From a virus: a stretch of 32,925 nucleotides of DNA. The notes under the pieces are model-generated. The model was not told the DNA's origin, did no database searches, and was given only the letters and a program-made list of their open reading frames with translations. The DNA lies in the IMG/VR virus record IMGVR_UViG_3300025151_000158, positions 1 to 32,925 of that record; one strand, written 5' to 3'. Shown piece after piece: positions 14,746 to 31,997 of this stretch. The position numbers and the translations under genes are program-made. The number at the start of each line of letters is the position of its first letter. Position 1 is the first letter of the stretch.

Positions 14746-15504
14746 TCAGCCTGTTTTTACGAATTCATTAAACATCTTACCTGAGTACTTAAACTCTCCA
14801 ACATGCGCTATATCCTCGTCTATTAGAGCATGTATTTTACCTCCCATAGAGGTCCATAATTTACAGAAATAAAAGTCTTCTCCTGTATATGTTTTTGTTT
14901 TTGGGCTGTAATACGAATCGAAAAAATTAAAGTAAAACGGTCTTTCTGTCATCTCACCGTTGACCATGGTTTGTTGAATAATGTTTAATTCATTATATTC
15001 TTTCATTAATTTTTCAAAAGCAGATCTTTGAATCATCATCATACCAGTTGGTCCTTTAATTACCTCAACAAAACCATTTTTTGGTTCAATTTTATTTTCA
15101 TCACCAAATGTTACAGGGTAAATTAAACCGTATGTATTTGAGTTATCATCAGGTCTTTTTTCTAAGTCTTTTCTAAACTTTGTTTCATTAACTGTTTTCA
15201 TTGGATAAGGAATTAAAGAAACCTCATGTTCACACTTAAAAAGTCTAAGAGCAGATCTTGTTGTAAAATCAATATCTGAATCTATAAACAGCATGTGTGT
15301 AGCATCAGATTGTAAGAAAGCTGATACACACAAGTTTCTTCCCTGTGTAACTAGACTAGACTTCATTAACTGAAACGTAACTTTTATCTTATTAAGTAAA
15401 CATTCCTTTTGTAAATCAAGACAAGCTTTCATGTAATGCATTGACACTTCTGAATGAATAGGTGTGCATACCATTAAACTCTTTTTATTTGTTTCTGTAG
15501 ACAC
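14746..15504 (-). CDS. GT-A fold glycosyltransferase-like protein (DXD motif)
   Basis: A 252-residue protein resembling GT-A/family-2-like sugar transferases. It opens with strand MVCTPIHSEV (11-20), has SLVTQGRNLCVSAFL, and the metal-binding DSD in HMLFIDSDIDF (D75, D77). A later GEDFYFCKLW and the IHALIDEDIAHVGEF region fit the acceptor half. It should move a sugar from a nucleotide-sugar donor to an unknown acceptor (virion protein, DNA or cell envelope). The start is a GTG at 15504, chosen because AAGGAG lies six bases before it; it overlaps the upstream glycosyltransferase gene by 20 bases. The two transferases therefore form a unit, followed by a promoter for the next operon. Confidence 0.77.
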   Translation of the reverse strand: MSTETNKKSLMVCTPIHSEVSMHYMKACLDLQKECLLNKIKVTFQLMKSSLVTQGRNLCVSAFLQSDATHMLFIDSDIDFTTRSALRLFKCEHEVSLIPYPMKTVNETKFRKDLEKRPDDNSNTYGLIYPVTFGDENKIEPKNGFVEVIKGPTGMMMIQRSAFEKLMKEYNELNIIQQTMVNGEMTERPFYFNFFDSYYSPKTKTYTGEDFYFCKLWTSMGGKIHALIDEDIAHVGEFKYSGKMFNEFVKTG

Positions 15505-16423
15505 TTAATGCTCCTTTTAAAAAATTAGTCCAAAAATTTCCTATTACTTTCCAATCATAAAACCTTTTATAATAAGATTGTTGAAATTTAAGACCTTGTG
15601 AAATATCTCTTTTTAATATTTCTTTTGTTTCTATTATAGCTTCTGCTAGTTGTATCTTTAAATTTTTTTTATTTGATGTGTAAGGTATGTATATTGGAAA
15701 TTCTGCACATGTTTCTGGAAGAGCGCCAAGGTCAGTAGTTATAAGCATTTGACCAGCAGCTAAAGATTCCATAGCTGATATACAAAAAGTTTCTTCCCAT
15801 ATACTTGGAAAACAATTAACTTGATAGTCTTTAAGCTTTCCCAATAGTTTGTCGTGAGGGCAATACCCCATATAGTTTACATTTGATAAACTTTTTGCTT
15901 TTTCGTAGAGCTCTTTATACGGCTCATCGTTATTTTCGTAAAAAGTTTTTCCATAAATAATTGTTGATGAGAATACATCAAGAGATATATCAGGATCTTT
16001 TATTGCTTCCATAGAGTCTAAAGCAATTTCTAAACCTCTCCATGGTGTAGAAATGTAACACATCTTAAGTTTTGGCTGTGGAGTGAAATCATTTTTTAAA
16101 ATAAGTTCATCATAATCTATTCCATTTTTTATTACAGTACATTTATCTTCTGGTATTTTAAAAAAATACCTATATTTCTCGTAACTCCAATGACTATTAA
16201 ATACATACCAATCATACTTGTCATGATTTTTTTTATCTTTAAACCAGTTGTGTAAGTTAGGTTGATCATAAGAATTTTTTAACCAAAGAATATTTGGTTT
16301 TACAGGATGTAAAGGTTCTTTTTCAGGAACAGATGTTGTTATTTGAACAGCGTCTAATAAAGAATACTCAACAAATTTTTTTAAATAATCAAATTGGATT
16401 TCAGTTCCACCGTATGGTTGCAT
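15485..16423 (-). CDS. GT-B fold (GT4-like) glycosyltransferase
   Basis: A 312-residue protein with an N-terminal GGTEIQ (5-10), an NSHWS and IKNGID (98-103) linker region, and the C-terminal donor-binding segment with the E-x7-E motif (E211, E219) in EETFCISAMESLAAG. These are marks of retaining GT-B enzymes of the GT4 group. It is slightly short; the usual first beta strand before the GGxE loop is missing, so it is a compact form. The ATG shares one base with the preceding stop. With the adjacent GT-A enzyme it probably adds sugars to a phage or host target; substrate cannot be told from sequence. Confidence 0.8.
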   Translation of the reverse strand: MQPYGGTEIQFDYLKKFVEYSLLDAVQITTSVPEKEPLHPVKPNILWLKNSYDQPNLHNWFKDKKNHDKYDWYVFNSHWSYEKYRYFFKIPEDKCTVIKNGIDYDELILKNDFTPQPKLKMCYISTPWRGLEIALDSMEAIKDPDISLDVFSSTIIYGKTFYENNDEPYKELYEKAKSLSNVNYMGYCPHDKLLGKLKDYQVNCFPSIWEETFCISAMESLAAGQMLITTDLGALPETCAEFPIYIPYTSNKKNLKIQLAEAIIETKEILKRDISQGLKFQQSYYKRFYDWKVIGNFWTNFLKGALSVYRNK

Positions 16424-16644
16424 TATTCGGTTTTACCAAAAACTTCTAAAGAATCAACTGTTATTTTTTGGTTGATTTGTAAATCATCATTAGTAGTGTC
16501 ACTATTGGGATCAGCAACATCATTATCAAAATCAGCTTTACTAGCATATTTTTTTCCTGTTCTTTTATTTAATATTTCTTCAGTTGCTGTGGCTTGGACT
16601 ACAGGAACTTCTTGTCCACCGATATTAACAGTTTTATTTGTCAT
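16423..16644 (-). CDS. Small hypothetical phage protein
   Basis: A 73-residue acidic protein (VNIGGQEVPVVQATATEE, then KYASKADFDNDVADPNSDT). No membrane segment or enzyme motif is visible. The type is familiar from uncharacterised marine phage gene sets, but I do not recognise a family name. AAGG lies upstream of the ATG. It is sandwiched between a tiny basic gene and the GT4 gene, with a one-base overlap to the latter. Confidence 0.65.
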   Translation of the reverse strand: MTNKTVNIGGQEVPVVQATATEEILNKRTGKKYASKADFDNDVADPNSDTTNDDLQINQKITVDSLEVFGKTE

Positions 16645-16646
16645 TA

Positions 16647-16775
16647 CTACCTTCCTTGACGGTTGTAGCGCTTATAACATCTTTTTTTATGTTTGTTAAG
16701 TCTTTTTGTATGACGCCTTGGACGTTTTCTTGGCTTTGGTCTAGGTGTGAAATTAAGAAATTTTACCTTAGCCAT
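16647..16775 (-). CDS. Tiny arginine/lysine-rich protein
   Basis: A 42-residue protein reading MAKVKFLNFTPRPKPRKRP at the start; about half of its residues are Lys, Arg or His. It overlaps the preceding gene by eight bases and ends two bases before the next ATG, so it fills the junction exactly, which supports it as a real gene. The strong positive charge suggests nucleic-acid binding or a packaged DNA counter-ion; there is no direct evidence. Confidence 0.6.
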   Translation of the reverse strand: MAKVKFLNFTPRPKPRKRPRRHTKRLNKHKKRCYKRYNRQGR

Positions 16776-17118
16776 TTTCTTGTGATCTATCTATCAATGC
16801 ATAACTTACAGCACCCTGAATTTTATTACTTCCTGTAGCTGCTGTTACTGTTATTGCATCTCCCGATTCTAAATTTAAACCTTGAGGGGTGGCGTTGATT
16901 TGTGATTTAGCTGGAACATCATCCCTAAAAAATTCATATTCAGTGCTTGAAGCAGAAGAATCTACTAAATTCATGTTAACTAATATAGCTGATGAGGCAT
17001 CATTATTTGCACAGTAAACACTTTTAATAATTATTGTTGCATCAGTTGGACAAGTCAGCACCGTAGTTTTACTTGTATCGGCTTGTTTGAAACCTTGATT
17101 TTTATATTGAATTGTCAT
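16768..17118 (-). CDS. Small beta-rich virion protein (paralogue-like to 24036-24401)
   Basis: A 116-residue Thr/Ser/Ala-rich protein with alternating hydrophobic strands: TTVLTCPTDATIIIKSVYC, then SAILVNMNLVD and LNLESGDAITVTAATG. The layout resembles the small protein at 24036-24401, including the late LxxGDxI turn, suggesting a shared jelly-roll-like decoration fold. Its start overlaps the upstream gene by four bases (ATGA). A virion role is inferred from the family resemblance and from the nearby tail genes. Confidence 0.6.
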   Translation of the reverse strand: MTIQYKNQGFKQADTSKTTVLTCPTDATIIIKSVYCANNDASSAILVNMNLVDSSASSTEYEFFRDDVPAKSQINATPQGLNLESGDAITVTAATGSNKIQGAVSYALIDRSQENG

Positions 17119-17279
17119 GATATAAAATAATTAAACGCTTCTTGTTCATCTTTCAAGTCTTTTTGATATGAAAAATTTAATTGTTGTTTTATTACGTCAA
17201 CTGATTCTAATATTTGTCTTTGATTAGAAACATCGTATTGTTCTTTTGGTTCTGGTATGTATGCTGTTATTTTTGCCAT
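17115..17279 (-). CDS. Small hypothetical phage protein
   Basis: A 54-residue protein starting MAKITAYIPEPKEQYDVSNQ with a predicted helical C-terminal half (ILESVDVIKQQLNFSYQK). It overlaps the oxygenase gene upstream by 13 bases and shares an ATGA with the gene downstream. The exact tiling and even codon use support it as real. Function unknown. Confidence 0.6.
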   Translation of the reverse strand: MAKITAYIPEPKEQYDVSNQRQILESVDVIKQQLNFSYQKDLKDEQEAFNYFIS

Positions 17280-17779
17280 TTAATATTACCACTTACTATT
17301 AGTCTAACATTATCTTTATTTGGGTCAACCGAGTGAGGTAAAAAACAAGGAAACAGTGTGCACAATCCTATCTCAGGTTTAATTTTTTTTGCATAATAAC
17401 TCAAATAAGGATAACCTGGATTATATAAATTTAAGTGAGAAGAATCTTCGGTACAATCAATAATATATGAAAAAGAATAGAAATCTTTAATTGATTCGTG
17501 AGTATGCAGATCGTGAAAATGACCCTTCTCATAATGTTGTATCCAAGCTTTTACTAAACCATATTTTTTATAACCTAGATAAATACCTACTTCTTTGAAA
17601 AAAGGATCAAGCTGTTTAAGCGTAAGATCTAACAGTTCTTTATTGGGTTCGTCATAATCATAATTATTGTTTTGTGTCTCATGATGATTGAGTTTTTGGT
17701 TTTTTACAAATTCTAAATAGTCCTTTGAAAAAGGTATTGTCTTTTTGAAATACTCAATAGAGATATCTTTTACTTGCAT
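17267..17779 (-). CDS. 2OG-Fe(II) oxygenase-like protein
   Basis: A 170-residue protein fitting a minimal double-stranded beta-helix dioxygenase. The proximal metal-binding segment is GHFHDLHTHE (86-95), followed by FSFSYII-like strands; the distal His is H149 in LFPCFLPHSV, and R159 in VRLIVSGNI would bind 2-oxoglutarate. Family members hydroxylate amino acids, peptides, nucleic acids or small molecules using O2 and 2-oxoglutarate. It stands alone between the large tail protein and a group of small genes, separate from the two clusters. The ATG shares one base with the tail gene stop. Substrate unknown; the exact pair of proximal ligands is uncertain because several His lie close together. 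Confidence 0.7.
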   Translation of the reverse strand: MQVKDISIEYFKKTIPFSKDYLEFVKNQKLNHHETQNNNYDYDEPNKELLDLTLKQLDPFFKEVGIYLGYKKYGLVKAWIQHYEKGHFHDLHTHESIKDFYSFSYIIDCTEDSSHLNLYNPGYPYLSYYAKKIKPEIGLCTLFPCFLPHSVDPNKDNVRLIVSGNIKWQK

Positions 17780-19698
17780 TATCTACGTCCGTCAGGCTGA
17801 ATGTCGAATCTAAATAACCCTAATCTCCAATTTTGATCTACAGCGTCATTTTCAATCTTAACACTAGCTAATCTTGACCTTGCACGTGTATGAATTTGTT
17901 TTGTTGTTGGTGTTACTGTAAACGGACCTAAAGGTGAAGATGCTTGTGTATCATTTGGAAAAGCTCTTAAATTTAAAGTCACCTTTGCTTGACCCGATAG
18001 AATACCGAAGTCAGGAATAAACCTTCTAATCTTAATAAAATACTCACCGTTTCCTTCAACGTCTAATTCAAAGTCTCCTGATTGTATAAAGGCTTGTATT
18101 GCAGTAGTAGTTCCATTAGCATCAACTTCGTTTAAACCACTTTCATGTTCATACAATCTACTGGCGCCTTGGTTCGTGATCCCTTGTACAGTAGGAAAAG
18201 TCCCTGTTCCTGTTGTGTAAAATCTTGTTGCATAAGGTAACGGAAATACACCTTGATCAAAATAAGTTGTTCTAGCTAAAGTTCCTACAGTCCATACATT
18301 CTCGTCATAATTATAAGTTACTACTCTATCTATATTATTTGAACCTGCTTTAGGATAAAACCAATTTATTTCACTAAACAAACTATTATGTGAAGCAAAT
18401 GTTATTTTACCTGCAGAAAAATTTAATCCTAAATTATTTCCATTTGATGTAAAAACAAAGTCTTCTACTAAACATGGTAAAGCTTTTACAGTACCGTCAA
18501 AAACAAAAAAGCCACCCTCATCACTTATCCAATATACAGCTCCGTTGACGTATACTGCAGCATTCGGACCCAAACAACCACAATTAGTCCCAACTTGTTT
18601 TATACTAAATGTAAAAGGTGGGCCTACAAATTGCATAATATAGGCGGCTGTATCTGTAAGAATAAAAATGTAATCTTTACCTTTTACCGCTGCAATAATT
18701 TCACTTCCACTATCTAATCTAAAAGTTCCAGCAGTGTTAGTAGAAGTAGGTGCATAAGTGTTTAAATCTTCTTGGTCAGAGAATCTTATAAACATTTTAT
18801 CTTGTGTCGTAGTTGTTCCAATTGTAGTTTCTGTTCCTAAATGAACTAAGTGCCTATCTCTGTCAGAAACAATGGTAGCCACACTTTTTGTAGGGTTACC
18901 AGATAAAGCTACCGCTCTTGTAACAAGAGCATTTGTATCTGCTGCAACAGGATTCCAAGAAAAACTTGGGCCGTTATGAACAGTAGCTATTAGTGTTTGA
19001 CCATAATTGTCTAATGACCACAGGCCTGGATCAAGGATTAAGTTAGAAGATGTTCTTGATGTGCCCCATGTAGATAGACCCCAAGTACCAGTACCAAAAC
19101 CATAAGCAGGCTGTTGGATGTAGTTACCTATATCAATGTATGGTGTAAGTGTTAAAGATCCATTATTTGTTACGGATCCTGTCGATTCGTTTGATGGCAT
19201 TTGAATAGTAAAAGTAGTTGTTGACGGAACCGTCAAAACTTCAAAAAGATTATCGGTAAAATTAGCAGATGTAAAACTAGTTCCTGATAATCCTGTAGCA
19301 GCAGAAAATGCTACAAGTTCTGTGATTTGTAAATTATGATCAGCTGGTGTAGTGATAGTCACTATGTTACTACCATTAGTAGTGGTGATGTCACAGTTCG
19401 CTTGTGTTCTAACTGAATCTAACGGAGTTATATCATAAAATATTTCATCATAATAAATAGCTAAAATTCTATTTGTTCCAATTGCAGAGTACCTTCTACC
19501 ATCTAAATCAAACCAATTGTGCATTTGCCTAGCAACACCTACTAAATCATTTGCATTTAATTGATTCCATCCTCCTATTTTTTCAGGCATGCCGTATCTA
19601 AAACGCACGTTATCACCATCAATCCAAACATTTTGAGCCTGGGTTGCTGTGATTTGTTTGTTAAAACCTGCTGCGAATGGTACTTTAGCTAATGGCAT
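17779..19698 (-). CDS. Large tail / nozzle-like (P22 gp10-type) structural protein
   Basis: A 639-residue protein. Its opening, FAAGFNKQITATQAQN followed by NVRFRYGMPEKIGGW (about 31-45), is typical of a family of short-tailed phage tail proteins that I associate with P22 gp10-like stabilisation or T7 gp12-like nozzle parts. The body is Thr/Asn/Gly-rich with repeated beta strands, as expected for a beta-propeller nozzle. It contains YGFGTGTWGLSTWGTS, a Trp-Gly pattern shared with the 25110-26576 protein. It follows oxygenase cluster A and is 8 bases from the preceding gene. The exact equivalence to gp10 or gp12 is uncertain. Confidence 0.55.
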   Translation of the reverse strand: MPLAKVPFAAGFNKQITATQAQNVWIDGDNVRFRYGMPEKIGGWNQLNANDLVGVARQMHNWFDLDGRRYSAIGTNRILAIYYDEIFYDITPLDSVRTQANCDITTTNGSNIVTITTPADHNLQITELVAFSAATGLSGTSFTSANFTDNLFEVLTVPSTTTFTIQMPSNESTGSVTNNGSLTLTPYIDIGNYIQQPAYGFGTGTWGLSTWGTSRTSSNLILDPGLWSLDNYGQTLIATVHNGPSFSWNPVAADTNALVTRAVALSGNPTKSVATIVSDRDRHLVHLGTETTIGTTTTQDKMFIRFSDQEDLNTYAPTSTNTAGTFRLDSGSEIIAAVKGKDYIFILTDTAAYIMQFVGPPFTFSIKQVGTNCGCLGPNAAVYVNGAVYWISDEGGFFVFDGTVKALPCLVEDFVFTSNGNNLGLNFSAGKITFASHNSLFSEINWFYPKAGSNNIDRVVTYNYDENVWTVGTLARTTYFDQGVFPLPYATRFYTTGTGTFPTVQGITNQGASRLYEHESGLNEVDANGTTTAIQAFIQSGDFELDVEGNGEYFIKIRRFIPDFGILSGQAKVTLNLRAFPNDTQASSPLGPFTVTPTTKQIHTRARSRLASVKIENDAVDQNWRLGLFRFDIQPDGRR

Positions 19699-19706
19699 AT
19701 GGCTTA

Positions 19707-20384
19707 TTATACTATTTTTTTACCAAGTATTCTATCTTTCAGTATAGAAAACTTATAGCTTAAAGTATTGGTATGGCTTGTTAGATCAAACTTTTTATTA
19801 GAAAAATGTAGTTCAATATCATCTTGTGTTTCAAAAGACATATAAAATAATGGTTCGTCCTTTTTGATAACTATTTTATCAGTCTCTTTCCTAACAGGTA
19901 AAAACATATTTAAATCAGTTGGTATATCTTTAGGATGTATTACACCAGGAAGACATTCCCAATTTCTAAACTCCCATGAAGCATTATGAAAATATAAAGG
20001 TGCATCTGATTGAATATAATTAAACATACATATCTTTATTACAAATTGATAATTATCGTTTTGTACATAATCCAACAGCTGTGAGTTACTATGAGTTGTC
20101 ACACTCATAAGATTATTAAAATCGCCATTACCCATTGCCCACTGCTCTAACCTATTATTAGACACTAGAAACTCCATATCAAAAGGAGATGTGAAAACTA
20201 ATACTTTTCTAAAATAGTTTACGAATCCAGGACAAGTTTTAATTGTAGTGCTTGTCTCTGAACGATTAAAAAGCCTTGGTATATTTTTGTAGTATTTTGG
20301 TAGATTTTGTGGAAAGCTTAAAAAATTATTCTTTAATATTTCTATGGGTATTATGTTGCTATAAATTGTAAGGTTATTTTTCAT
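19707..20384 (-). CDS. Unrecognised protein at the end of oxygenase cluster A
   Basis: A 225-residue protein with no HxD...H oxygenase motif. Notable segments are NNLTIYSNIIPIEIL, KTCPGFVNYFRKVLVFTSPFDME, PLYFHNASWEFRNWECLPG (about 130-148) and FLPVRKETDKIVIKKDEPLFYMSF. Several aromatic-rich strands suggest a compact beta fold that may bind a small molecule. It overlaps the preceding oxygenase gene by 11 bases and is therefore co-translated with the cluster. It could be a partner or downstream enzyme of the oxygenases; I do not recognise the family. Confidence 0.6.
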   Translation of the reverse strand: MKNNLTIYSNIIPIEILKNNFLSFPQNLPKYYKNIPRLFNRSETSTTIKTCPGFVNYFRKVLVFTSPFDMEFLVSNNRLEQWAMGNGDFNNLMSVTTHSNSQLLDYVQNDNYQFVIKICMFNYIQSDAPLYFHNASWEFRNWECLPGVIHPKDIPTDLNMFLPVRKETDKIVIKKDEPLFYMSFETQDDIELHFSNKKFDLTSHTNTLSYKFSILKDRILGKKIV

Positions 20385-20994
20385 TTTTAAAAGAAACAGG
20401 TAAACCTATAAAAGGTCTTGTGTCAAATTTATTATACTCTGCGTTTTCAGTATCTACAGAATTATAATGCAAAAACACTTGACCACATAATTCTCCTTCA
20501 AATTTATTTCTCCAATGTTCTAGGATGTTACCTTTGTAAACTAACATATCTCCTTCTTCTAGATTGACTTCAACATCTGTATTCTCATTCTTAATATATA
20601 TAGGCCAAGGGTCGCCTCCTAAATAAAGTGTAGTTGATATCTCACAACTAAACCTATCAGTGTGTTTTTTTAATTCATCTCCTTTTTCATAAACTCTTGA
20701 GTATGAGTATGTTGGATATAATTTTTTATTTGTTATTTTTTCCATTATATTTTTAAGCTCTATCAAAAAAACTTCATTTTCTATTGATGCATAAATTGAG
20801 AACGTACCAGGCACTTGAGCATCATTCCATGTTCCAAAATCTATACTATCTTTTTTTAAATAATTTGTTTTGAACATATGGTCAGTAACCTTTCTTCTTA
20901 ACAATAAACATCTAAGAGCAAAATCTGCTATCTCCTTAGAGACAGCGCTCTTAATTATTGTAAAACCATCTTTATGAAAATTATAATTTGTCAT
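20374..20994 (-). CDS. 2OG-Fe(II) oxygenase-like protein (HTD type)
   Basis: A 206-residue protein with an N-terminal FHKDGFTIIKSAVS, as in phytanoyl-CoA-hydroxylase-like or prolyl-hydroxylase-like enzymes. The iron-binding pair is H111 and D113 in KKHTDRFSCEISTTLYL; the distal His is H160 in LEHWRN. The usual Arg or Lys about ten residues later is not clear (GQVFLHY at 171-177), so 2-oxoglutarate binding may use another residue. GDMLVYKGN before the distal His is typical. It overlaps the preceding oxygenase gene by 14 bases. Substrate unknown. Confidence 0.75.
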   Translation of the reverse strand: MTNYNFHKDGFTIIKSAVSKEIADFALRCLLLRRKVTDHMFKTNYLKKDSIDFGTWNDAQVPGTFSIYASIENEVFLIELKNIMEKITNKKLYPTYSYSRVYEKGDELKKHTDRFSCEISTTLYLGGDPWPIYIKNENTDVEVNLEEGDMLVYKGNILEHWRNKFEGELCGQVFLHYNSVDTENAEYNKFDTRPFIGLPVSFKNEK

Positions 20995-21487
20995 GTAAGT
21001 TGAAATGTATAAATCTTAAAATATTATTATTTTTCTGTACAGTAAACATGTGGGGTAAGTACGATGGAAATATTATTAAATCACCTTGTTGCGGTTTTAT
21101 ATTTACTCTCTCTGACATAGCGGATACCTCGTCTTTATTTTCTAATTCATTTATATCTTTGTATAAAAGTGTATTAGATCTTGGATCACAAAAAATAGGG
21201 AAGGATGTATCTTTGCCTACCTCTAAAAATAAAAAACCACTTACTAAACTATTATAATGAACATGATATTCTTGATTAGAATATTCTTTAAATGTTTCTA
21301 TCCATATATCTTTAATTTTAAGAGAACTATAATCTGTTTTTAAACCCATTCTTTTTATAAGTTCAAAGCCTTTGTCCAATAAAGTGTCTGACACAATTTT
21401 AAAATCATTTTGTGAACTGTTAAATCTATCACATAAATGTTTATGATTCTCATGAAACACAGGCGTTGGAAATAGACTATACATCAT
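20981..21487 (-). CDS. 2OG-Fe(II) oxygenase-like protein (Oxy_5 type)
   Basis: A 168-residue protein. MYSLFPTPVF at the N-terminus and YHVHYNSLVSGFLFLEV (H75, H77) are signatures of the 2OG-FeII_Oxy_5 group; the distal His is H146 in PSYLPHMF and R158 lies in ILRFIHFN. I take the ATG at 21487, which makes a four-base ATGA overlap with the preceding stop and gives the family-typical N-terminus, rather than the upstream ATG at 21511. The protein at 30480-31046 is the matching member in cluster B. Substrate unknown. Confidence 0.77.
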   Translation of the reverse strand: MMYSLFPTPVFHENHKHLCDRFNSSQNDFKIVSDTLLDKGFELIKRMGLKTDYSSLKIKDIWIETFKEYSNQEYHVHYNSLVSGFLFLEVGKDTSFPIFCDPRSNTLLYKDINELENKDEVSAMSERVNIKPQQGDLIIFPSYLPHMFTVQKNNNILRFIHFNLHDKL

Positions 21488-22146
21488 TTGAAAGGGTATC
21501 CTAAAAACCAAGAGACAAGAGAATATCGAGTTCCTTGTGTCACTGGTGTTATTCTATGCCAAACAAAAGATGGAAAAACTATCACGCTTCCTTTTGGTTT
21601 GAATCTATCTTCTTTTGTAACTATGAGTGCATCATCCTTATTTCTAAATTGAAACTCTAGTTCACCTCCTTGATAGTCACATGGGTCACTTAAATTAACA
21701 CACATAGATAATTTTCTTATTTTCTTATAAAAGTTTTCTTGTTTTGGATTTTCATAAGCCCCATCAAAAGAATCTGGATGCCAATTATAAAATTGATTAA
21801 TTTTGTATTTAGTGAATTGCACTGATTCAGAATGATTCACTTCGAAGTTCCATTCTGCATTTTTGTTAGCTGTATTAACATAAGGCCAAAGTTCTTTGTA
21901 AAGCCATTCTTCGTCTATCCAAGCAACATCTGAATCTCGCTTTTTTTTAGTTTTTTCTTCAAACTCTTTTAACAACTGGTTCTTTGTAACGTCAAATCTA
22001 TTTACAAGCTGTTCTTCAATGTATTTATCGGCATCTCCTGTTGTGCCCTTTCGTTCTCTTAAATTGTTTCCGTGTGTAATAAGTTTGTTACAAAACTCTT
22101 CAGACAAAACTTTTTCGAAAACCCAATAATAATTTTTTAGAATCAT
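21484..22146 (-). CDS. PKHD-type 2OG-Fe(II) prolyl/lysyl hydroxylase-like protein
   Basis: A 220-residue protein with the most classic motif set of the cluster: H123 and D125 in NWHPDSFDG, the strand RKLSMCVNLSD, the YQGGELEF turn, and distal FPSFVWHRITPVTQGTRYSLVSW (H197, R207). This is the P4Hc/PKHD hydroxylase pattern, whose members hydroxylate prolyl or lysyl residues or small molecules. It overlaps neighbours by four bases (ATGA) on each side. The protein at 29938-30480 is the cluster B counterpart. Actual substrate cannot be told. Confidence 0.88.
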   Translation of the reverse strand: MILKNYYWVFEKVLSEEFCNKLITHGNNLRERKGTTGDADKYIEEQLVNRFDVTKNQLLKEFEEKTKKKRDSDVAWIDEEWLYKELWPYVNTANKNAEWNFEVNHSESVQFTKYKINQFYNWHPDSFDGAYENPKQENFYKKIRKLSMCVNLSDPCDYQGGELEFQFRNKDDALIVTKEDRFKPKGSVIVFPSFVWHRITPVTQGTRYSLVSWFLGYPFK

Positions 22147-22628
22147 AAATAATTAAAAACCAAAGTAACTCTTGCTTTTTTATCTGTACATGTCGTACTA
22201 GCATGAGGTTTTGAAGAATCAAATAAAACTAAATTATTCTGTTTACTCTCTATTTCTTGATCTTCAATTATGGTTTTTCCATTATTTGTATTAAAAAAGA
22301 AGAGTGCACCTTTATGTGGATATTCAAAATCAGTGTGCATTCTATGTTTAATTATTTTTTGTTGATTCAAATATAAATTTGCTTTTATTCTTATTATTGC
22401 TTTAGGTTTTAATCTATCCAAGAAAGGCCGACAAACCATGTCATAAAATTCGCTATTGGGTCTATTATCTTTATAAAATAAATGTGCTAAGAAAATATTA
22501 TCTAGAGGATCTTTTTCATCAATCACAAAGTCTTGATAAAACCACGGAAAACTATTATTCATTACAAATTTTTGTAAATTTGTAAAAGCGTCTTGTGGTA
22601 AAAAATCTTCTATGATTTCAATTGACAT
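22143..22628 (-). CDS. 2OG-Fe(II) oxygenase-like protein, first gene of cluster A
   Basis: A 161-residue protein. After EIIEDFLPQDAF comes FPWFYQDFVID and NIFLAHLFYKDN, then iron ligands H98 and D100 in HRMHTDFEYPHKGALFFFN, the LVLFDSSKPHAS segment (H142) and R153 in KARVTLVFNYL. It is clearly the same subfamily as 31506-31997, which shares the WFYQ, FAHxF and NLYL/NMYL blocks in the same order. It has no ribosome site; instead a hairpin (22630-22649) abuts the ATG. It overlaps the next gene by four bases. Substrate unknown. Confidence 0.83.
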   Translation of the reverse strand: MSIEIIEDFLPQDAFTNLQKFVMNNSFPWFYQDFVIDEKDPLDNIFLAHLFYKDNRPNSEFYDMVCRPFLDRLKPKAIIRIKANLYLNQQKIIKHRMHTDFEYPHKGALFFFNTNNGKTIIEDQEIESKQNNLVLFDSSKPHASTTCTDKKARVTLVFNYL

Positions 22629-22629
22629 G

Positions 22630-22649
22630 AGTAAGTTTATACACTTACT
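22630..22649. repeat. Inverted repeat abutting the first gene of oxygenase cluster A
   Basis: AGTAAGT (22630-22636) and ACTTACT (22643-22649) are exact reverse complements around a six-base loop. On the minus strand the hairpin ends one base before the ATG at 22628. No T-run follows on the minus strand, so it is not an obvious terminator; it may control access to the start codon or stabilise an RNA end. Confidence 0.5.
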
Positions 22650-22664
22650 TTAATTAAAAGGCAA
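22636..22664 (-). promoter_or_regulatory. Weak promoter-like pair before oxygenase cluster A
   Basis: On the minus strand TTGCCT (22664-22659), 17 bases, then TATAAA (22641-22636). Transcription would begin at about the ATG at 22628, giving a leaderless message, which would explain the missing ribosome site. The -35 box is only a 4 of 6 match, so this is tentative. Confidence 0.25.
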
Positions 22665-22665
22665 A

Positions 22666-23181
22666 TTAACTTGGTATTTCCCAAGAAGTAGAAGTAGAAC
22701 TCCAAACTAAAGATGTAGTATTTTCAAAATCTTGACCAATCCATCTTGCATTCTCATCATCCCAAGTCCAATTCATTGCTTTTTCACCATGGTTTCTTGT
22801 TGGAAAACCGAAGCTTGGTTCCCAATCACATCTACTAGTGTTAAACACCCAACTAGAATAAGGTTTTGGTGGTATGAATTTATCTGTTGCAGAATCGTAA
22901 GTATATCCTTGTGCAGGATAATTTCCTCTTAATGGAGTACCTCCATCAACATGTTCATTGTTTTGAGTTTTTTTATCACATCTTTTAACGTATGTGTTTT
23001 GCGGATAGTTTCCATCGTAATATGTGTCTGCAGTCCATGCATCATCAGGAATAGTAGAATTTACCCAAGTTGCGCACTGATCAGAATCAACTCCTCCATT
23101 AGCAGCGCATTGTGCATCGTCCATTATGACTACTTTAATTACAATATTATCGTCTGAATTAATTTGTGCAAAATGTGCCAT
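22666..23181 (-). CDS. Tail-fibre-associated hypothetical protein (MAHFAQI type)
   Basis: A 171-residue Trp- and Tyr-rich protein starting MAHFAQINSDDNIVIKVVIM, a start found in a widespread family of marine phage proteins beside tail fibres. It contains paired Cys (C-x10-C around NGGVDSDQC), a repeat-like NYPQNTYVKRCDKKTQN, and a C-terminal set of strands with SSWVFNTSRCDWEP and MNWTWDDENARWIGQ. I use the ATG at 23181, which shares one base with the preceding stop and gives the family N-terminus, rather than the in-frame ATG at 23196. Probably a virion or fibre-linked protein; function unknown. Confidence 0.68.
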   Translation of the reverse strand: MAHFAQINSDDNIVIKVVIMDDAQCAANGGVDSDQCATWVNSTIPDDAWTADTYYDGNYPQNTYVKRCDKKTQNNEHVDGGTPLRGNYPAQGYTYDSATDKFIPPKPYSSWVFNTSRCDWEPSFGFPTRNHGEKAMNWTWDDENARWIGQDFENTTSLVWSSTSTSWEIPS

Positions 23182-24020
23182 TATCCTGATTTCCAATTTC
23201 CATCTTTAATTGCTTCAAAGACTTGTTTAGTTGGCCATACACCAGAAGCTGAAAAAGCATCAAGTTCTCTTACGATTACAATACCATCTCCGCCACTTCT
23301 TGTGCCGCCACCGTGATTCGCTCCTGCTCCACCACCTCGGCCATCGCCTCCATTTTGGCCTCCAGGTGAACCTTCACCTCCGCCTCCTGTACCTCCAGCA
23401 TAATTTCCGTCAGAGCCGCCTCCGCCTCCAGCGTAAAAATTTCCAGGTGATGAAATTGCATTTTCTGAACCTTGTCCTCCAGCAGAAGCTCCTGGTTGGC
23501 TAGCACCTCCGCCACCTCCACGGCTATTGTTATTTCCTCCAGGATTTCCTTGAGGTGGACTTACAGGTGGAATGTTACCATTTCCTCCGCTTCCACCCTG
23601 AGAACCTCCGCCTCCCGAGCCGCCAGGTCGTCCAGCTTGGCCATTCCATGAGCCGCCACCTCCGCCTCCAGCAGATGTAATTCCAAATACACTTGAAGAA
23701 CCACCATTGTTTGCTTGTTGATAGTCACCGCAGAAACCTCCGCCTCCGCCTCCAACTGAGACAGGGTAGCTTGATCCACCTGATACAGGTTGAGCATTTG
23801 CTACAGGAGATGGATAGTTTGTTCTATATCCTCCTGCTCCTCCGCCACCAATTCGGGCTGCGCCACCGCCACCACCGACAATAAGATATTCTACAAATTT
23901 AGTGCCTGGTGATGCAGTATAAGTTCCGCCTGAAGTAAATGAATTAACTGCAGGTGATCCAGCTACAGAATTAACTGGAATGTTTGGAGTGCCTATAATA
24001 CCACCTTGTCCTTGTGCCAT
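23181..24020 (-). CDS. Glycine-rich tail fibre / adhesin-like protein
   Basis: A 279-residue protein. The N-terminal part (about 25-50) reads FTSGGTYTASPGTKFVEYLIV, the usual lead-in to phage glycine-rich domains. Residues of about 50-248 are dominated by Gly runs broken by short Ser/Asn/Pro/Ala stretches, followed by GDGIVIVRELD and a C-terminal tail. This resembles glycine-rich fibre-tip proteins that form polyglycine-II-like packs, as in S16/T2-type adhesins, so receptor binding is plausible. AGGAGGT precedes the ATG. The Gly-rich part is GC-rich for this genome because glycine codons require it, so transfer need not be invoked. Confidence 0.72.
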   Translation of the reverse strand: MAQGQGGIIGTPNIPVNSVAGSPAVNSFTSGGTYTASPGTKFVEYLIVGGGGGAARIGGGGAGGYRTNYPSPVANAQPVSGGSSYPVSVGGGGGGFCGDYQQANNGGSSSVFGITSAGGGGGGSWNGQAGRPGGSGGGGSQGGSGGNGNIPPVSPPQGNPGGNNNSRGGGGGASQPGASAGGQGSENAISSPGNFYAGGGGGSDGNYAGGTGGGGEGSPGGQNGGDGRGGGAGANHGGGTRSGGDGIVIVRELDAFSASGVWPTKQVFEAIKDGNWKSG

Positions 24021-25109: not shown

Positions 25110-26576
25110 CTATGCTGCCTCGTCAATAACCGTCCAAGTGTTAGTTATATCTGGATCTACTACTGCCCAGGCATTTATGTTAATTGTACCAACAGAACCG
25201 TTGATTTGCAATCCTGTTACTGGTGCTTCAGCACTTGCTCCAGCTACCGCACTCGCAAGAGTTGGTGTTAGAGATATTCCTGAAGGAGAAGCTATAGTAT
25301 TTGCGTCTAATACGGCTGTTCCTAAAGAGAAAGTTGTTGATAGTCCCGTTAAAGCACCTGTGTTTGCGTCCGCTGTTACGCTTACTGAACTTACATTTGT
25401 AGTTAAGCTTTGTCCCGTAGTAATAGTGTCTACTGATGGGATTATGACTTCAACACCTGTTATTAAAGTATTTCCATCACCATTACCCCAAAGGCTATTT
25501 CCCCATGTGTCATTTCCCCAAGGGTCATTAGAAGGAGATGTAACTTCAACAATTGTAAGTTCTCCACCAAAAGCACTTCCTTGAGAAGCTGTTGCGTTTG
25601 TTCCTGATAAAGAATAAATAGAAGCTTGACCAAGAGTTCCAAGTGATGAAGACATTCCTTGTCCTGTTAAAGAAACATTCGCTTCTCCAATACCAACTTC
25701 AACACCACTTACTAACGAAATTCCGTCACCTATACCCCATAATCCATTACCCCATGCTTCATTACCCCATGGATCATTTGAAGGAGATGTAACTTCAACA
25801 GTTACAAGCTCTCCAGCAAATACTGTGCCTCTGCTCGAAGTCATGCTTTGACCTGTGACTGGAGCCTCGGCACTTGTTCCAGCAACTTCGTTTCCTACAG
25901 CTGATGTTATGGATGCGCCTGTTGGTATAATGTCTGCGTTTGCTGTAACGCTTTCAGTTCCAATAGCAAATGTACCAATGCTGATACCTGTAACAGCTGC
26001 TTCAGGACTTTCAAATTCACCCCATTCTTGAGAACCCCAAGTTAATGCACCCCATCCAACAGATGGAAAATACGAAACAGAACTTACTGCTGATGTAACG
26101 TTTACACCAGTTGCAGAAACAGATTGATCCCCTAATAAATTCCAAGTACCAAATCCCCATGTTTTTGCTCCCCATGTATTTTGAGTAATATCAAAAACAC
26201 CTCCCATGCCAATTCCATGGATATAACACAAATAATAAAAATCTGTTTCGGAAGATGGTGTTACCTCAATGTATCTTGTAGTAGCAGCATTGAATGTAGT
26301 TGTGTTTGTGTAGTTTGCTTGGTTGCTAGCTCCGTCAAGATAATAAGTTATTCCTGAAGAAATAATTCCAGACGTACTAGTATTTGTTGAAAAAATTAAC
26401 GGATGACCGTCATTAGATGCATCACTTTGTTCAAAACGTAAAGTTGCACCTGAAACCCAGCTTACAGTTCCTGGACCTGTAGAATTTCTAGCACCGTCCA
26501 AATAAAAGACGTTGCCCGTTCCTCCGCCATAAAGGTTACCCGATGCTACGGTAACTGTGTAAGTAAGTTCTGCCAT
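25110..26576 (-). CDS. Tail protein with cupredoxin-like N-terminal domain and Trp-Gly repeats
   Basis: A 488-residue protein. Residues 1-130 look like a plastocyanin/azurin-type beta sandwich: H58 in NDGHPLIF, and C117, H120 and M124 in FYYLCYIHGIGMGGVFDI, the His-Cys-His-Met set of a type 1 copper site (C-x2-H-x3-M spacing). After this come four Trp-Gly clusters (TWGAKTWGFGTW, GWGALTWGSQEWGEF, and two near-identical DPWGN...WGNGLWG-type units 83 residues apart) and Ala/Thr/Val-rich beta repeats with VTGISI/VTGQSMTSS elements. A tail-fibre role is inferred from neighbours and repeat style; metal binding is inferred from the motif. AGGAG lies ten bases before the ATG. Confidence 0.72.
   Translation of the reverse strand: MAELTYTVTVASGNLYGGGTGNVFYLDGARNSTGPGTVSWVSGATLRFEQSDASNDGHPLIFSTNTSTSGIISSGITYYLDGASNQANYTNTTTFNAATTRYIEVTPSSETDFYYLCYIHGIGMGGVFDITQNTWGAKTWGFGTWNLLGDQSVSATGVNVTSAVSSVSYFPSVGWGALTWGSQEWGEFESPEAAVTGISIGTFAIGTESVTANADIIPTGASITSAVGNEVAGTSAEAPVTGQSMTSSRGTVFAGELVTVEVTSPSNDPWGNEAWGNGLWGIGDGISLVSGVEVGIGEANVSLTGQGMSSSLGTLGQASIYSLSGTNATASQGSAFGGELTIVEVTSPSNDPWGNDTWGNSLWGNGDGNTLITGVEVIIPSVDTITTGQSLTTNVSSVSVTADANTGALTGLSTTFSLGTAVLDANTIASPSGISLTPTLASAVAGASAEAPVTGLQINGSVGTININAWAVVDPDITNTWTVIDEAA
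25532..25800. repeat. Internal direct repeat, 249-base period
   Basis: The 20-base unit AAGGAGATGTAACTTCAACA occurs at 25532-25551 and again at 25781-25800. Similar sequence continues on both sides, encoding the two EVTSPSNDPWGN units. The period equals 83 codons, so it reflects duplication of a protein module inside the tail gene. Confidence 0.8.
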
Positions 26577-29820: not shown

Positions 29821-29941
29821 AGTGTCTAAGCCTTTTTCGGTTGTACAACTTCTTTGATTGTACCACTTTTTGTTTGAACAGTAAACTTCCCACCCTAAGC
29901 ATTTTAGCAATAGGATTTCTCTTTTTTTCTTTATTTTTCAT
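29801..29941 (-). CDS. Tiny basic protein, NPIAK type
   Basis: A 46-residue protein beginning MKNKEKKRNPIAKMLRVGSL, then FKQKVVQSKKLYNRKR. The NPxAK...FxxKVVxxKKxYxRK layout is one I recognise from small phage proteins of unknown function. Its ATG overlaps the preceding oxygenase stop by four bases (ATGA), and it overlaps the next gene by 20 bases. This explains the apparent gap and argues for the short start of the next gene. Confidence 0.68.
   Translation of the reverse strand: MKNKEKKRNPIAKMLRVGSLLFKQKVVQSKKLYNRKRLRHYDKTMC
29857..29885 (-). promoter_or_regulatory. Possible extended -10 promoter inside the tiny basic gene
   Basis: On the minus strand TTTACT (29885-29880), 17 bases, then TGG-TACAAT with TACAAT at 29862-29857. 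The -10 box matches 5 of 6 and has the extended TGn. It would start transcripts near 29850, feeding the basic-protein and adaptor genes. It lies in coding sequence, so it may be chance. Confidence 0.33.
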
Positions 29942-30480
29942 CTTAATCTCGGTCCTTTAAAAAATATTACCAGAGTTCTTCTCGATCCGTAAGTGACAGG
30001 TAATACTTTGTGAGGATGATAAGATTTAAATAAAATTGCGTCACCGCCTTGTGAAAATTCAGTTATTTTATTTTTTTGATGTATTAGTTGAAACTCTCCT
30101 CCTTCATACTTTGATTCTGAAAGATTAATTATAAAAGTAAGTTTTAAATCAAATGGTTTATCTCTTTCACCATCCACATGCCAATCATATTCTCCTTTTT
30201 CAGAACCATCATAATCATTAAGAGTTGCAAATTCGTTAGGTGTAATTTCAAATATATCCATACCAAAGTTGAAAGAGTTAACAGTTACAGCAGCGTTGAT
30301 ACATGGTTTTATTTCATCCCAAATGTGACCTAATTGAATTGTCTTAACATTTGTAATTTTCGTTGTATTAGCTGCACGTTTATCCTCACAATCCTCTACA
30401 TAATAATTAATTTTTTCATTAAGTTTTTTTACATCAGGTGGAGATATTATTTTATTCCAATACCAATAAGTGAAAGACAT
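29938..30480 (-). CDS. PKHD-type 2OG-Fe(II) oxygenase, last gene of cluster B
   Basis: A 180-residue protein with H101 and D103 in EYDWHVDGERDKPFDLKLTF, the YEGGEFQL turn, and distal YHPHKVLPVTYGSRRTLVIFF (H157, R167 or R168). This is the same subfamily as 21484-22146 but with a shorter N-terminal part. The V-T-x-G-S/T-R spacing after the distal His is shared by both. The ATG overlaps the preceding stop by one base, and its stop overlaps the next ATG by four. Substrate unknown; prolyl/lysyl-type hydroxylation is the family default. Confidence 0.87.
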   Translation of the reverse strand: MSFTYWYWNKIISPPDVKKLNEKINYYVEDCEDKRAANTTKITNVKTIQLGHIWDEIKPCINAAVTVNSFNFGMDIFEITPNEFATLNDYDGSEKGEYDWHVDGERDKPFDLKLTFIINLSESKYEGGEFQLIHQKNKITEFSQGGDAILFKSYHPHKVLPVTYGSRRTLVIFFKGPRLR

Positions 30481-31046
30481 TAATTATAATTAAAAGAAAA
30501 AGACATTCTTTTATCCTCTGTTAAATTTGGTTTTACTCTGTGTTTTAACCAACTTGGAAACAAAATCAATAGGTTATCTTCAGGAACTACAAAATATTTA
30601 GAAGAATTGTATATATTATATTCTTTATGTTTAATCTTTTGTAAATGATATTCTATGGTTTCAAAATCATTTACAAATTCAATTGCACCAGAATCTTTTT
30701 TTGTTTGTACATAAAAAACACCAGATATAAAAGAATCTATATGACAATGAAGTATATTATAATTTCCATAGTAATTAATGTTAGCCCATAAATTGTCAAG
30801 TTTTGTATTTTCAATATTAAAAACTTTTTTAAATATTTCTACATTTTTATTTAATTCCTCAATTAATTCTTGAAGTTCTTCTTGTTTATTATCTAAGTCT
30901 TTTGATTGAAAGCCACCTTCATTTGATATTACTCTTTTGTTATTCTGTCTTTCTATATTTTCTATGAACAATTTTAATTTATTTAAATTTAAATTTAATT
31001 TTTTAATATAGATAGGAGTGCTAAAAATGTTAATTAGTTCATTCAT
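30480..31046 (-). CDS. 2OG-Fe(II) oxygenase-like protein (Oxy_5 type)
   Basis: A 188-residue protein. It opens with INIFSTPIYIKKL, has a Lys/Glu/Asn-rich helix (about 55-85), and the metal-binding ILHCHIDSFISGVFYV (H100, H102). The distal His is H169 in FPSWLKHRV, and R180 in KRMSFSFNYN may bind 2-oxoglutarate. This is the 2OG-FeII_Oxy_5 layout, matching 20981-21487. It overlaps the preceding gene by eight bases. Substrate unknown. Confidence 0.78.
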   Translation of the reverse strand: MNELINIFSTPIYIKKLNLNLNKLKLFIENIERQNNKRVISNEGGFQSKDLDNKQEELQELIEELNKNVEIFKKVFNIENTKLDNLWANINYYGNYNILHCHIDSFISGVFYVQTKKDSGAIEFVNDFETIEYHLQKIKHKEYNIYNSSKYFVVPEDNLLILFPSWLKHRVKPNLTEDKRMSFSFNYN

Positions 31047-31506
31047 TTGTTTTAAAAGCTATTGATATTCTTGGTAAACTTGAATTTGAAGATAATCCTC
31101 TATGTGATAATTCTGATGGAAAAGCTATAAGTTGATTTTGAATAAAATTAATCTTTTTATCTTTTATTTCTAAACAGCCTTCTCCTTTTTGTAATGTATC
31201 TGAAACCATAAGTAAGTATGTCGTTGTCCCATTATCTTGGTGCCATGAACCACTCATGTCGGAGTGTTGAATATTTGCATAAGCTTCAATTACTTTTATA
31301 TTTTTCTTAAAAGTTTTAATTAACTTAAAATGTAAAAATTCAAGATCTTCTTTTTTCAAGTCTGATCTATAAAATTGTTTATGTTTTGGATCTGATATTA
31401 TAGATTTTTCACCATAGTAGTGAGGGTAGTTATAAAGTATTTTATAATGTAAATATTTTATATAATCATCATCTAACCAATCATTTATGCAAACTATGTT
31501 AGACAT
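31039..31506 (-). CDS. 2OG-Fe(II) oxygenase-like protein (HQD type)
   Basis: A 155-residue protein with H89 and D91 in SWHQDNGTTTYLLMV, the GEGCLEI strand, LIAFPSELSHRG (H135) and R146 in LPRISIAFKTN. The WHxD...G.. layout and the FPS..xHRG distal motif are good evidence of a dioxygenase fold. It has a different N-terminal helical part from its neighbours and is not an obvious match to 20374-20994. The ATG overlaps the preceding stop by one base. Substrate unknown. Confidence 0.8.
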   Translation of the reverse strand: MSNIVCINDWLDDDYIKYLHYKILYNYPHYYGEKSIISDPKHKQFYRSDLKKEDLEFLHFKLIKTFKKNIKVIEAYANIQHSDMSGSWHQDNGTTTYLLMVSDTLQKGEGCLEIKDKKINFIQNQLIAFPSELSHRGLSSNSSLPRISIAFKTNE

Positions 31507-31997
31507 TAAAAATAATTAAAATTTATGACTATCCTGTTTGGTGTAGAAAGCTGAGTTTTAACTCTATGTTGTGTCTCACTTGGAAATATAACTATTCTAT
31601 TTTCTTCTGATTGAACAAATTCATTAGTATCTTTAAATTCTGTTCCACCATCATTAGAATTTACATAAAGAACTGCAGTGGTTGCACCTTTTAATTTATT
31701 ATCAGTATGCCAATTAGAATAATATCTTTCACCAGTTCTTAAATACATGTTAGCTCTCACACTAATGGTCGCTGCAACCTTCAATCTTTCTAAACACTCT
31801 ACTATAAAAGGATCATAAAATGGAGAGTTAATTGTATTTTTGTGAAAAAAAATATGGGCAAAGTAAAAATTATCAGGATTTTTACCAGTCTGTACCATGT
31901 GTTTTTGGTAAAACCAATTTATATCACTACTTGTTAGAATGTTTCTAAACTGATTCCACTTAGATCTTTCTATGAAATTGTCAATTACTCGAAGCAT
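31506..31997 (-). CDS. 2OG-Fe(II) oxygenase-like protein, first gene of cluster B
   Basis: A 163-residue protein with INWFYQKHMVQTGKN, NFYFAHIFFHKN, ANMYLRTGERYYSNWHTDNK (H97, D99), FPSETQHRV (H144) and R155 in NRIVINFNYF. It shares these blocks in order with 22143-22628, and both lead their cluster. A hairpin (32001-32039) begins four bases before the ATG, and the only ribosome-site-like GGA sits in the hairpin arm. Substrate unknown. Confidence 0.85.
   Translation of the reverse strand: MLRVIDNFIERSKWNQFRNILTSSDINWFYQKHMVQTGKNPDNFYFAHIFFHKNTINSPFYDPFIVECLERLKVAATISVRANMYLRTGERYYSNWHTDNKLKGATTAVLYVNSNDGGTEFKDTNEFVQSEENRIVIFPSETQHRVKTQLSTPNRIVINFNYF

Follow-up and report, generated by a model that had tools for sequence, protein, structure and literature searches.

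The stretch analysed here (the window; 32,925 nucleotides) is a linear 32.9 kb IMG/VR virus record and a fragment of a relative of HTVC023P-type pelagiphages. It encodes two 2-oxoglutarate (2OG) oxygenases, phrog_61 (positions 21484–22146) and phrog_2954 (20374–20994), which are probably prolyl hydroxylases of the phage's own glycine-rich (Gly-rich) tail-region protein (23181–24020), the two glycosyltransferases (GTs) encoded nearby apparently forming a separate system. The enzyme pair would travel with the Gly-rich open reading frame (ORF) and phrog_7759 as one exchangeable module and would act after translation, with Fe(II), O2 and 2OG, on prolines of the Gly-rich domain. Their hydroxylation would probably stabilise this domain or change its surface. 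An earlier note on this DNA had proposed a single route, in which oxygenases hydroxylate Gly-rich or fibre proteins and the GTs then use the new hydroxyl. The data fit better with two systems: a two-enzyme module for prolyl hydroxylation, well supported by inference, and an independent GT pair. The inventory on which the note was built is sound: every ORF it named was recovered, all on the minus strand, and its count of five oxygenases between 14746 and 24020 is correct if 20374–20994, labelled ferrochelatase in PHROGs, is included. Among named phages, the pelagiphages HTVC023P and HTVC027P are most closely related, with 54–55% identity in the stabilisation protein; a megablast search of the region against a phage collection gave zero matches. 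Oxygenases, 'ferrochelatases' and glycosyltransferases of this lineage have previously been published as auxiliary metabolic genes (PMC9599517).

Conserved gene order and proline in the Gly-rich ORF

Several hundred loci, collected by means of a range of query proteins, were surveyed for their gene neighbourhoods. Most often, the Gly-rich ORF is followed by phrog_7759, phrog_61, variable oxygenases, phrog_2954 and the stabilisation protein, and since the identical order returns in many independent contigs, the arrangement is beyond chance. In the window, the Gly-rich ORF (23181–24020, minus strand, like the other genes described here from the 14746–24020 interval) is confirmed by a match to PF21722 Gly_rich_2 (E = 3.5e-16) and to phrog_2295/863, and encodes the predicted client of the pair. 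Its partner, recognised by its match to phrog_7759, lies at 22666–23196, phrog_61 at 21484–22146 (PF13640, E = 1e-14), and the virion structural/stabilisation protein phrog_3287 (E = 2e-89; 55% identical to the HTVC023P protein), which served as the phylogenetic anchor, at 17779–19698. The Gly-rich ORF, phrog_7759, phrog_61 and phrog_2954 adjoin in HTVC023P, 023Pt_psg01, HTVC033P (another pelagiphage podovirus) and most IMG/VR relatives; the pair still adjoins the Gly-rich ORF after strand inversion (loci L260 and L269), and the four-gene grouping also occurs in the T4-like phages HTVC008M and P-RSM4. The module is shared by several unrelated marine phage groups, including podo- and myoviruses. 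On average, phrog_61 is 3.6 genes away from the nearest Gly-rich ORF, compared with 6.0 for genes drawn at random from the same loci (none of 2000 draws came as close), and phrog_7759 is 1.3 genes away, compared with 5.3. For phrog_2954 alone, the proximity is less marked (matched by 76 of 2000 draws) because the variable oxygenases intervene.

If the pair hydroxylates proline of the Gly-rich protein, this protein is expected to be rich in proline in pair-bearing loci. The protein encoded in the window has 279 amino acids, including 94 glycines and 18 prolines, with six Pro-Gly dipeptides and 6.4% proline in the Gly-rich part. Among dereplicated sequences, Gly-rich ORFs that have the pair no more than four genes away contain 7.2% proline (n = 157), versus 2.6% for those of loci lacking the pair (n = 28; p = 4.5e-16). 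The G+C content of the loci is equal in both groups, and the glycine, lysine, alanine and glutamine contents of the ORF are unchanged. When the comparison of all 20 residues was restricted to a strict position, namely, the Gly-rich ORF directly before phrog_7759, proline was the best separator of the two groups (area under the curve 0.98), with 7.2% in the presence of the pair (n = 119) and 2.5% in its absence (n = 12, dereplicated; p = 4e-8). This difference is robust to how the Gly-rich part is defined; asparagine, aspartate and serine are modestly lower with the pair. In a homologous stretch, GNTPPVSPPQGNPGG of pair-bearing loci corresponds to GNTPSTSPSQGNNGG of loci lacking the pair: proline precedes GG of this motif in 48 of 151 cases with the pair and in none of 20 without it.

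The proline difference persists when relatedness is taken into account. Each locus without the pair was matched one-to-one to its nearest pair-bearing relative (44–98% identity in the stabilisation protein), and proline was more abundant with the pair in all 22 matches. At the strict position, tree pairs with non-overlapping paths gave the same direction in nine out of nine cases (p = 0.004); this contrast is used in place of a tree-paired one of 15/15, which was set aside as it mixed two types of Gly-rich ORF. The control proteins phrog_7759, GT4 and GT-A show no proline difference by pair presence, and the proline content of the stabilisation protein shifts the opposite way. Within HTVC023P, four cassette Gly-rich ORFs, gp59–gp62, contain 7.8–11.3% proline and the fifth, gp70, located beside the stabilisation protein, 2.0%. 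Loci fetched afterwards added 88 pair-associated Gly-rich ORFs, with a median of 6.7% proline, and a single one lacking the pair (0.8%); they repeat the 'with' side and, with a single case, hardly test the 'without' side.

Two broader readings of the cassette were discarded. Action of all five oxygenases on the fibre does not fit, as the other oxygenase families do not track proline: loci lacking the pair are proline-poor even when as many as five oxygenases of other kinds are present (1.1% in L131), though one, L124, reaches 5.0%. Lysyl hydroxylation was rejected as the principal reading, the lysine content being unchanged. Oxygenase action on the Gly-rich fibre thus gains independent support, which extends to two enzymes out of five and to proline but not to lysine. 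A second target named in the earlier note, the fibre at 25110–26576, carries no clear proline signal (2.7 versus 2.3%, p = 0.076).

Active sites and folds of the oxygenase pair

The residues H123-x-D125, H197 and R207 of phrog_61 are conserved at 95–100%. Its sequence matches the PKHD hydroxylase PiuC (E = 3e-5), and phrog_61 has been described as resembling human EGLN3 in structure (PMC12774648). In phrog_2954, H111, D113 and H160 are invariant among 37 relatives, including proteins of T4-like cyanophages. The AlphaFold (AF2) model of phrog_2954, for which, as for GT-A, the alignment was built from IMG/VR loci, is a mostly beta double-stranded beta-helix (DSBH) with a pLDDT of 93.5. Foldseek retrieved as the top match the Pseudomonas putida prolyl 4-hydroxylase (P4H) in complex with EF-Tu (E = 2.4e-9) and, next in rank, a Dictyostelium PHD, and VIA-align gave Z scores of ~16 to P4H and PHD2 over 161–169 residues. 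The invariant HxD...H residues together with a DSBH model nearest to prolyl hydroxylases identify phrog_2954 as a predicted 2OG dioxygenase, best described as prolyl-hydroxylase-like rather than as a proven prolyl hydroxylase. Ferrochelatase (HemH) identity was rejected: the model is a DSBH and does not have the alpha/beta Rossmann-like two-domain fold of the chelatase. In Synechococcus phage S-T4 (L322:7881-9041), the phrog_2954 and phrog_61 domains reside within a single ORF, which suggests their joint function. Searches of the PDB with the single GT-A and phrog_2954 sequences gave no meaningful match; profile searches returned STIV A197 (6e-4) and, weakly, a Tet-like dioxygenase (0.065), neither of which is relied on here.

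Several papers on marine phages list the 'ferrochelatase' phrog_2954 among metabolic genes. Auxiliary metabolism, whereby the oxygenases would alter host 2OG, nitrogen or iron metabolism with the ferrochelatase as iron partner, has been proposed for cyanophages and pelagiphages (PMC3037559, PMC9599517, PMC11561400). Here this explanation has little likelihood, since the supposed iron partner is, on its model, itself a 2OG dioxygenase, and since metabolic roles predict neither linkage to a tail gene nor covariation with proline.

Support for proline hydroxylation by the pair comes from conserved adjacency, a prolyl-hydroxylase-like fold and proline content that tracks the presence of the pair. 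Several observations weigh against it. The structural likeness of the phrog_2954 model is not exclusive, as the small-molecule oxygenase SnoN ties with P4H and PHD2. The usual 2OG-binding arginine after the distal histidine is missing from phrog_2954, which has C170 and Q172 there; another of its invariant arginines (R100, R114 or R162) could be the 2OG anchor. In Syn9, S-RIM44 and S-RIM32, phrog_2954 is located 7–14 kb from Gly-rich ORFs that are proline-poor. A collagen-type X-Pro-Gly target was rejected, the ratio of Pro-Gly to proline (0.29) being not above expectation from glycine content, and the Gly-rich protein displays neither collagen-type Gly-X-Y repeats nor an X-Pro-Gly preference. 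The control fibre f24426 is slightly richer in proline with the pair (2.2 versus 1.5%), and the group without the pair is small (12 dereplicated ORFs, nine independent pairs). Finally, linked inheritance of a proline-rich ORF type and the oxygenases can alone yield covariation. The last point, together with the physical linkage, underlies the possibility that proline-rich Gly-rich ORFs and the oxygenase pair merely move together as a cassette while the enzymes act elsewhere. We regard this as rather unlikely, given that the adjacency survives strand flips and spans podo- and myoviruses, that the covariation centres on a single residue matching the closest folds of the enzymes and that a proline-poor Gly-rich ORF in the same genome remains proline-poor.

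The glycosyltransferase pair

Both GTs of the window are genuine, as the earlier note had it. The GT4-like enzyme (phrog_2170; 15485–16423) matches Pfam PF00534 Glycos_transf_1 (E = 2e-11). The second (phrog_1574; 14746–15504) has no Pfam match over the cut-off; its alignment displays invariant DxD (D75/D77), ED (E209/D210) and H234, and its AlphaFold model (pLDDT 90) has a GT-A fold with the DxD in place. Both are judged to belong to a system separate from the oxygenase pair. The GT4 and GT-A enzymes would constitute a glycosylation system of their own as part of the neighbouring virion-gene block, and their acceptor would in general not be a hydroxyl made by phrog_61 or phrog_2954. Protein glycosylation by this pair is possible, judging from the GT-A model.

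Mimivirus L230 and human LH3/COLGALT1 couple protein hydroxylation to subsequent glycosylation, using lysine. The collagen-like scheme, in which the GT4/GT-A pair glycosylates a hydroxyl placed on the fibre by the oxygenases, shares with these systems the idea of hydroxylation followed by glycosylation as well as GT-A fold similarity: the nearest structures to the GT-A model are STIV A197 (Z = 16.9), residues 293–519 of LH3 (16.4) and COLGALT1 (14.6), above generic GT-A enzymes at ~12–13. The LH3 match gives no evidence for hydroxylysine or hydroxyproline as the acceptor because the matched stretch is not the N-terminal GT domain of LH3. Both GTs and oxygenase pair are present in most phages of the lineage. 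However, unlike in L230 and LH3/COLGALT1, the signal in the phages lies in proline and not in lysine, whose content stays the same, and the GTs have no genetic coupling to the oxygenase pair. Across 43 dereplicated loci reaching both sides, 34 have both systems, three the oxygenase pair only, five the GTs only and one neither, so that GTs occur without the pair and vice versa; occurrence is independent (Fisher p = 0.46, with GT-negative loci being few). The GT pair keeps a fixed place with or without oxygenases, and GTs are also found in phages in which no oxygenase was detected (L328, L403 and L467). The distances of GT4 and GT-A to Gly-rich ORFs are no shorter than those of random genes (1276 and 1716 of 2000 draws as close, respectively), no GT–oxygenase fusion was found among ~600 loci, and in pair-bearing loci, some of which are cut, the proline, serine and threonine contents of the Gly-rich protein do not differ by GT presence. 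The dependence on, or linkage to, a hydroxylase that marks a collagen-type system was not found in these loci. In view of the independent occurrence and the lack of proximity, fusion and compositional change, the proposal that the GTs use an oxygenase-made hydroxyl is not supported; we consider the coupled route improbable.

The distant relatives of GT-A bear on another explanation, hydroxylation and glycosylation of DNA, comparable to the hydroxymethylated pyrimidines of T-even phages or to thymidine-hypermodified phages. In Cr30, phiM7 and DLP_6, these relatives sit among replication genes, and thymidine hypermodification genes are known from some HTVC023P clades (PMC9599517); in ACG-2014f, the relative is found among tail-collar, GT and sugar-epimerase genes. 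A thymidylate-synthase-type gene was not found in eight related records, including IMG/VR contigs of ~61 kb whose GT4 is 95–97% identical to that of the window, whereas control genomes were positive, and the oxygenases sit with tail genes. A search for TET/JBP proteins had no match anywhere and is hence uninformative. DNA hydroxymethylation in this phage is unlikely, and the combined DNA modification route very much so.

Other oxygenases and comparison with known systems

The remaining oxygenases between 14746 and 24020 are variable members of the cassette. Two belong to phrog_81/PF13759: one at 20981–21511 and the other at 17267–17779, downstream of the stabilisation protein. In these and in a third member at 30480–31046, H-x-H is nearly fully conserved in place of H-x-D and is accompanied by a distal histidine, possibly forming a three-histidine iron site. 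The phrog_274 protein (22143–22628) has only a weak PF13640 match. The family, which also includes 31039–31506 and 31506–31997, is named 'DNA endonuclease V' in PHROGs, a name that looks wrong because 22143–22628 bears the HxD...H...R signature of 2OG oxygenases (H98/D100, H142, R153). A second run of four different oxygenases occupies 29938–31997, upstream of tail genes. The phrog_7084 protein (19707–20384), identified by its family match, is a rare insert in the cassette, present only in few close relatives and in L331, and has no recognisable oxygenase features. In HTVC027P (L004:13292-14953) and L121, an oxygenase cassette without a Gly-rich ORF lies on the opposite strand, that is, a different module at the same site; HTVC027P also lacks phrog_2954. 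Tryptophan halogenase genes are found in or near oxygenase islands of HTVC008M, Syn9 and S-RIM44 (L315, L317 and L318), hinting at further modification chemistry.

A virus-encoded P4H is known from PBCV-1 (Eriksson 1999, cited in PMC9301287) and is thought to act on viral proteins. The pair described here likewise includes a predicted virus-encoded 2OG prolyl hydroxylase; unlike in PBCV-1, an algal virus, two enzymes make up the module, which in marine phages is linked to a single Gly-rich protein of the tail region. The closest folds to the phrog_2954 model, the EF-Tu-modifying P4H of P. putida (4iw3, 4j25) and the HIF hydroxylases PHD2/EGLN, share 10–12% identity with it; they are cellular and have other targets, and phrog_2954 differs from them in the position of the 2OG-binding arginine. 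The pair belongs to the same families as the 2OG-Fe(II) oxygenase/'ferrochelatase' auxiliary metabolic gene pair of HTVC023P-type phages (PMC9599517) and as phrog61/phrog2954 (PMC11561400), which were published as metabolic genes including a ferrochelatase, whereas we read them as a candidate hydroxylase pair for a tail protein. For the GT pair, a possible parallel is offered by mycobacteriophages, in which GTs have been proposed to modify virion proteins and virion glycosylation was suggested for Maravista (PMC11256854).

The 2OG oxygenases of marine phages are abundant, conspicuous and unexplained. Published explanations invoke DNA repair or the nitrogen or iron metabolism of the host, and phrog_61/phrog_2954 are reported to be enriched in seasonal ocean viruses (PMC11561400). 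Our search of the open-access literature, which leaves out subscription papers, did not bring up any previous suggestion that a Gly-rich tail protein is hydroxylated by oxygenases of a phage. It is plausible, with the balance about even, that a mobile module of marine podo- and myophages carries two prolyl hydroxylases modifying a Gly/Pro-rich, possibly polyglycine-II, tail adhesin, which would make the pair, among the most common 'metabolic' gene pairs in ocean viruses, virion-modifying and linked to host recognition. If proline hydroxylation by the pair is confirmed, a question that mass spectrometry of a cultured pelagiphage could address, the widespread 'ferrochelatase' annotation would be wrong and a large group of genes presumed to be auxiliary metabolic ones would move to another category.

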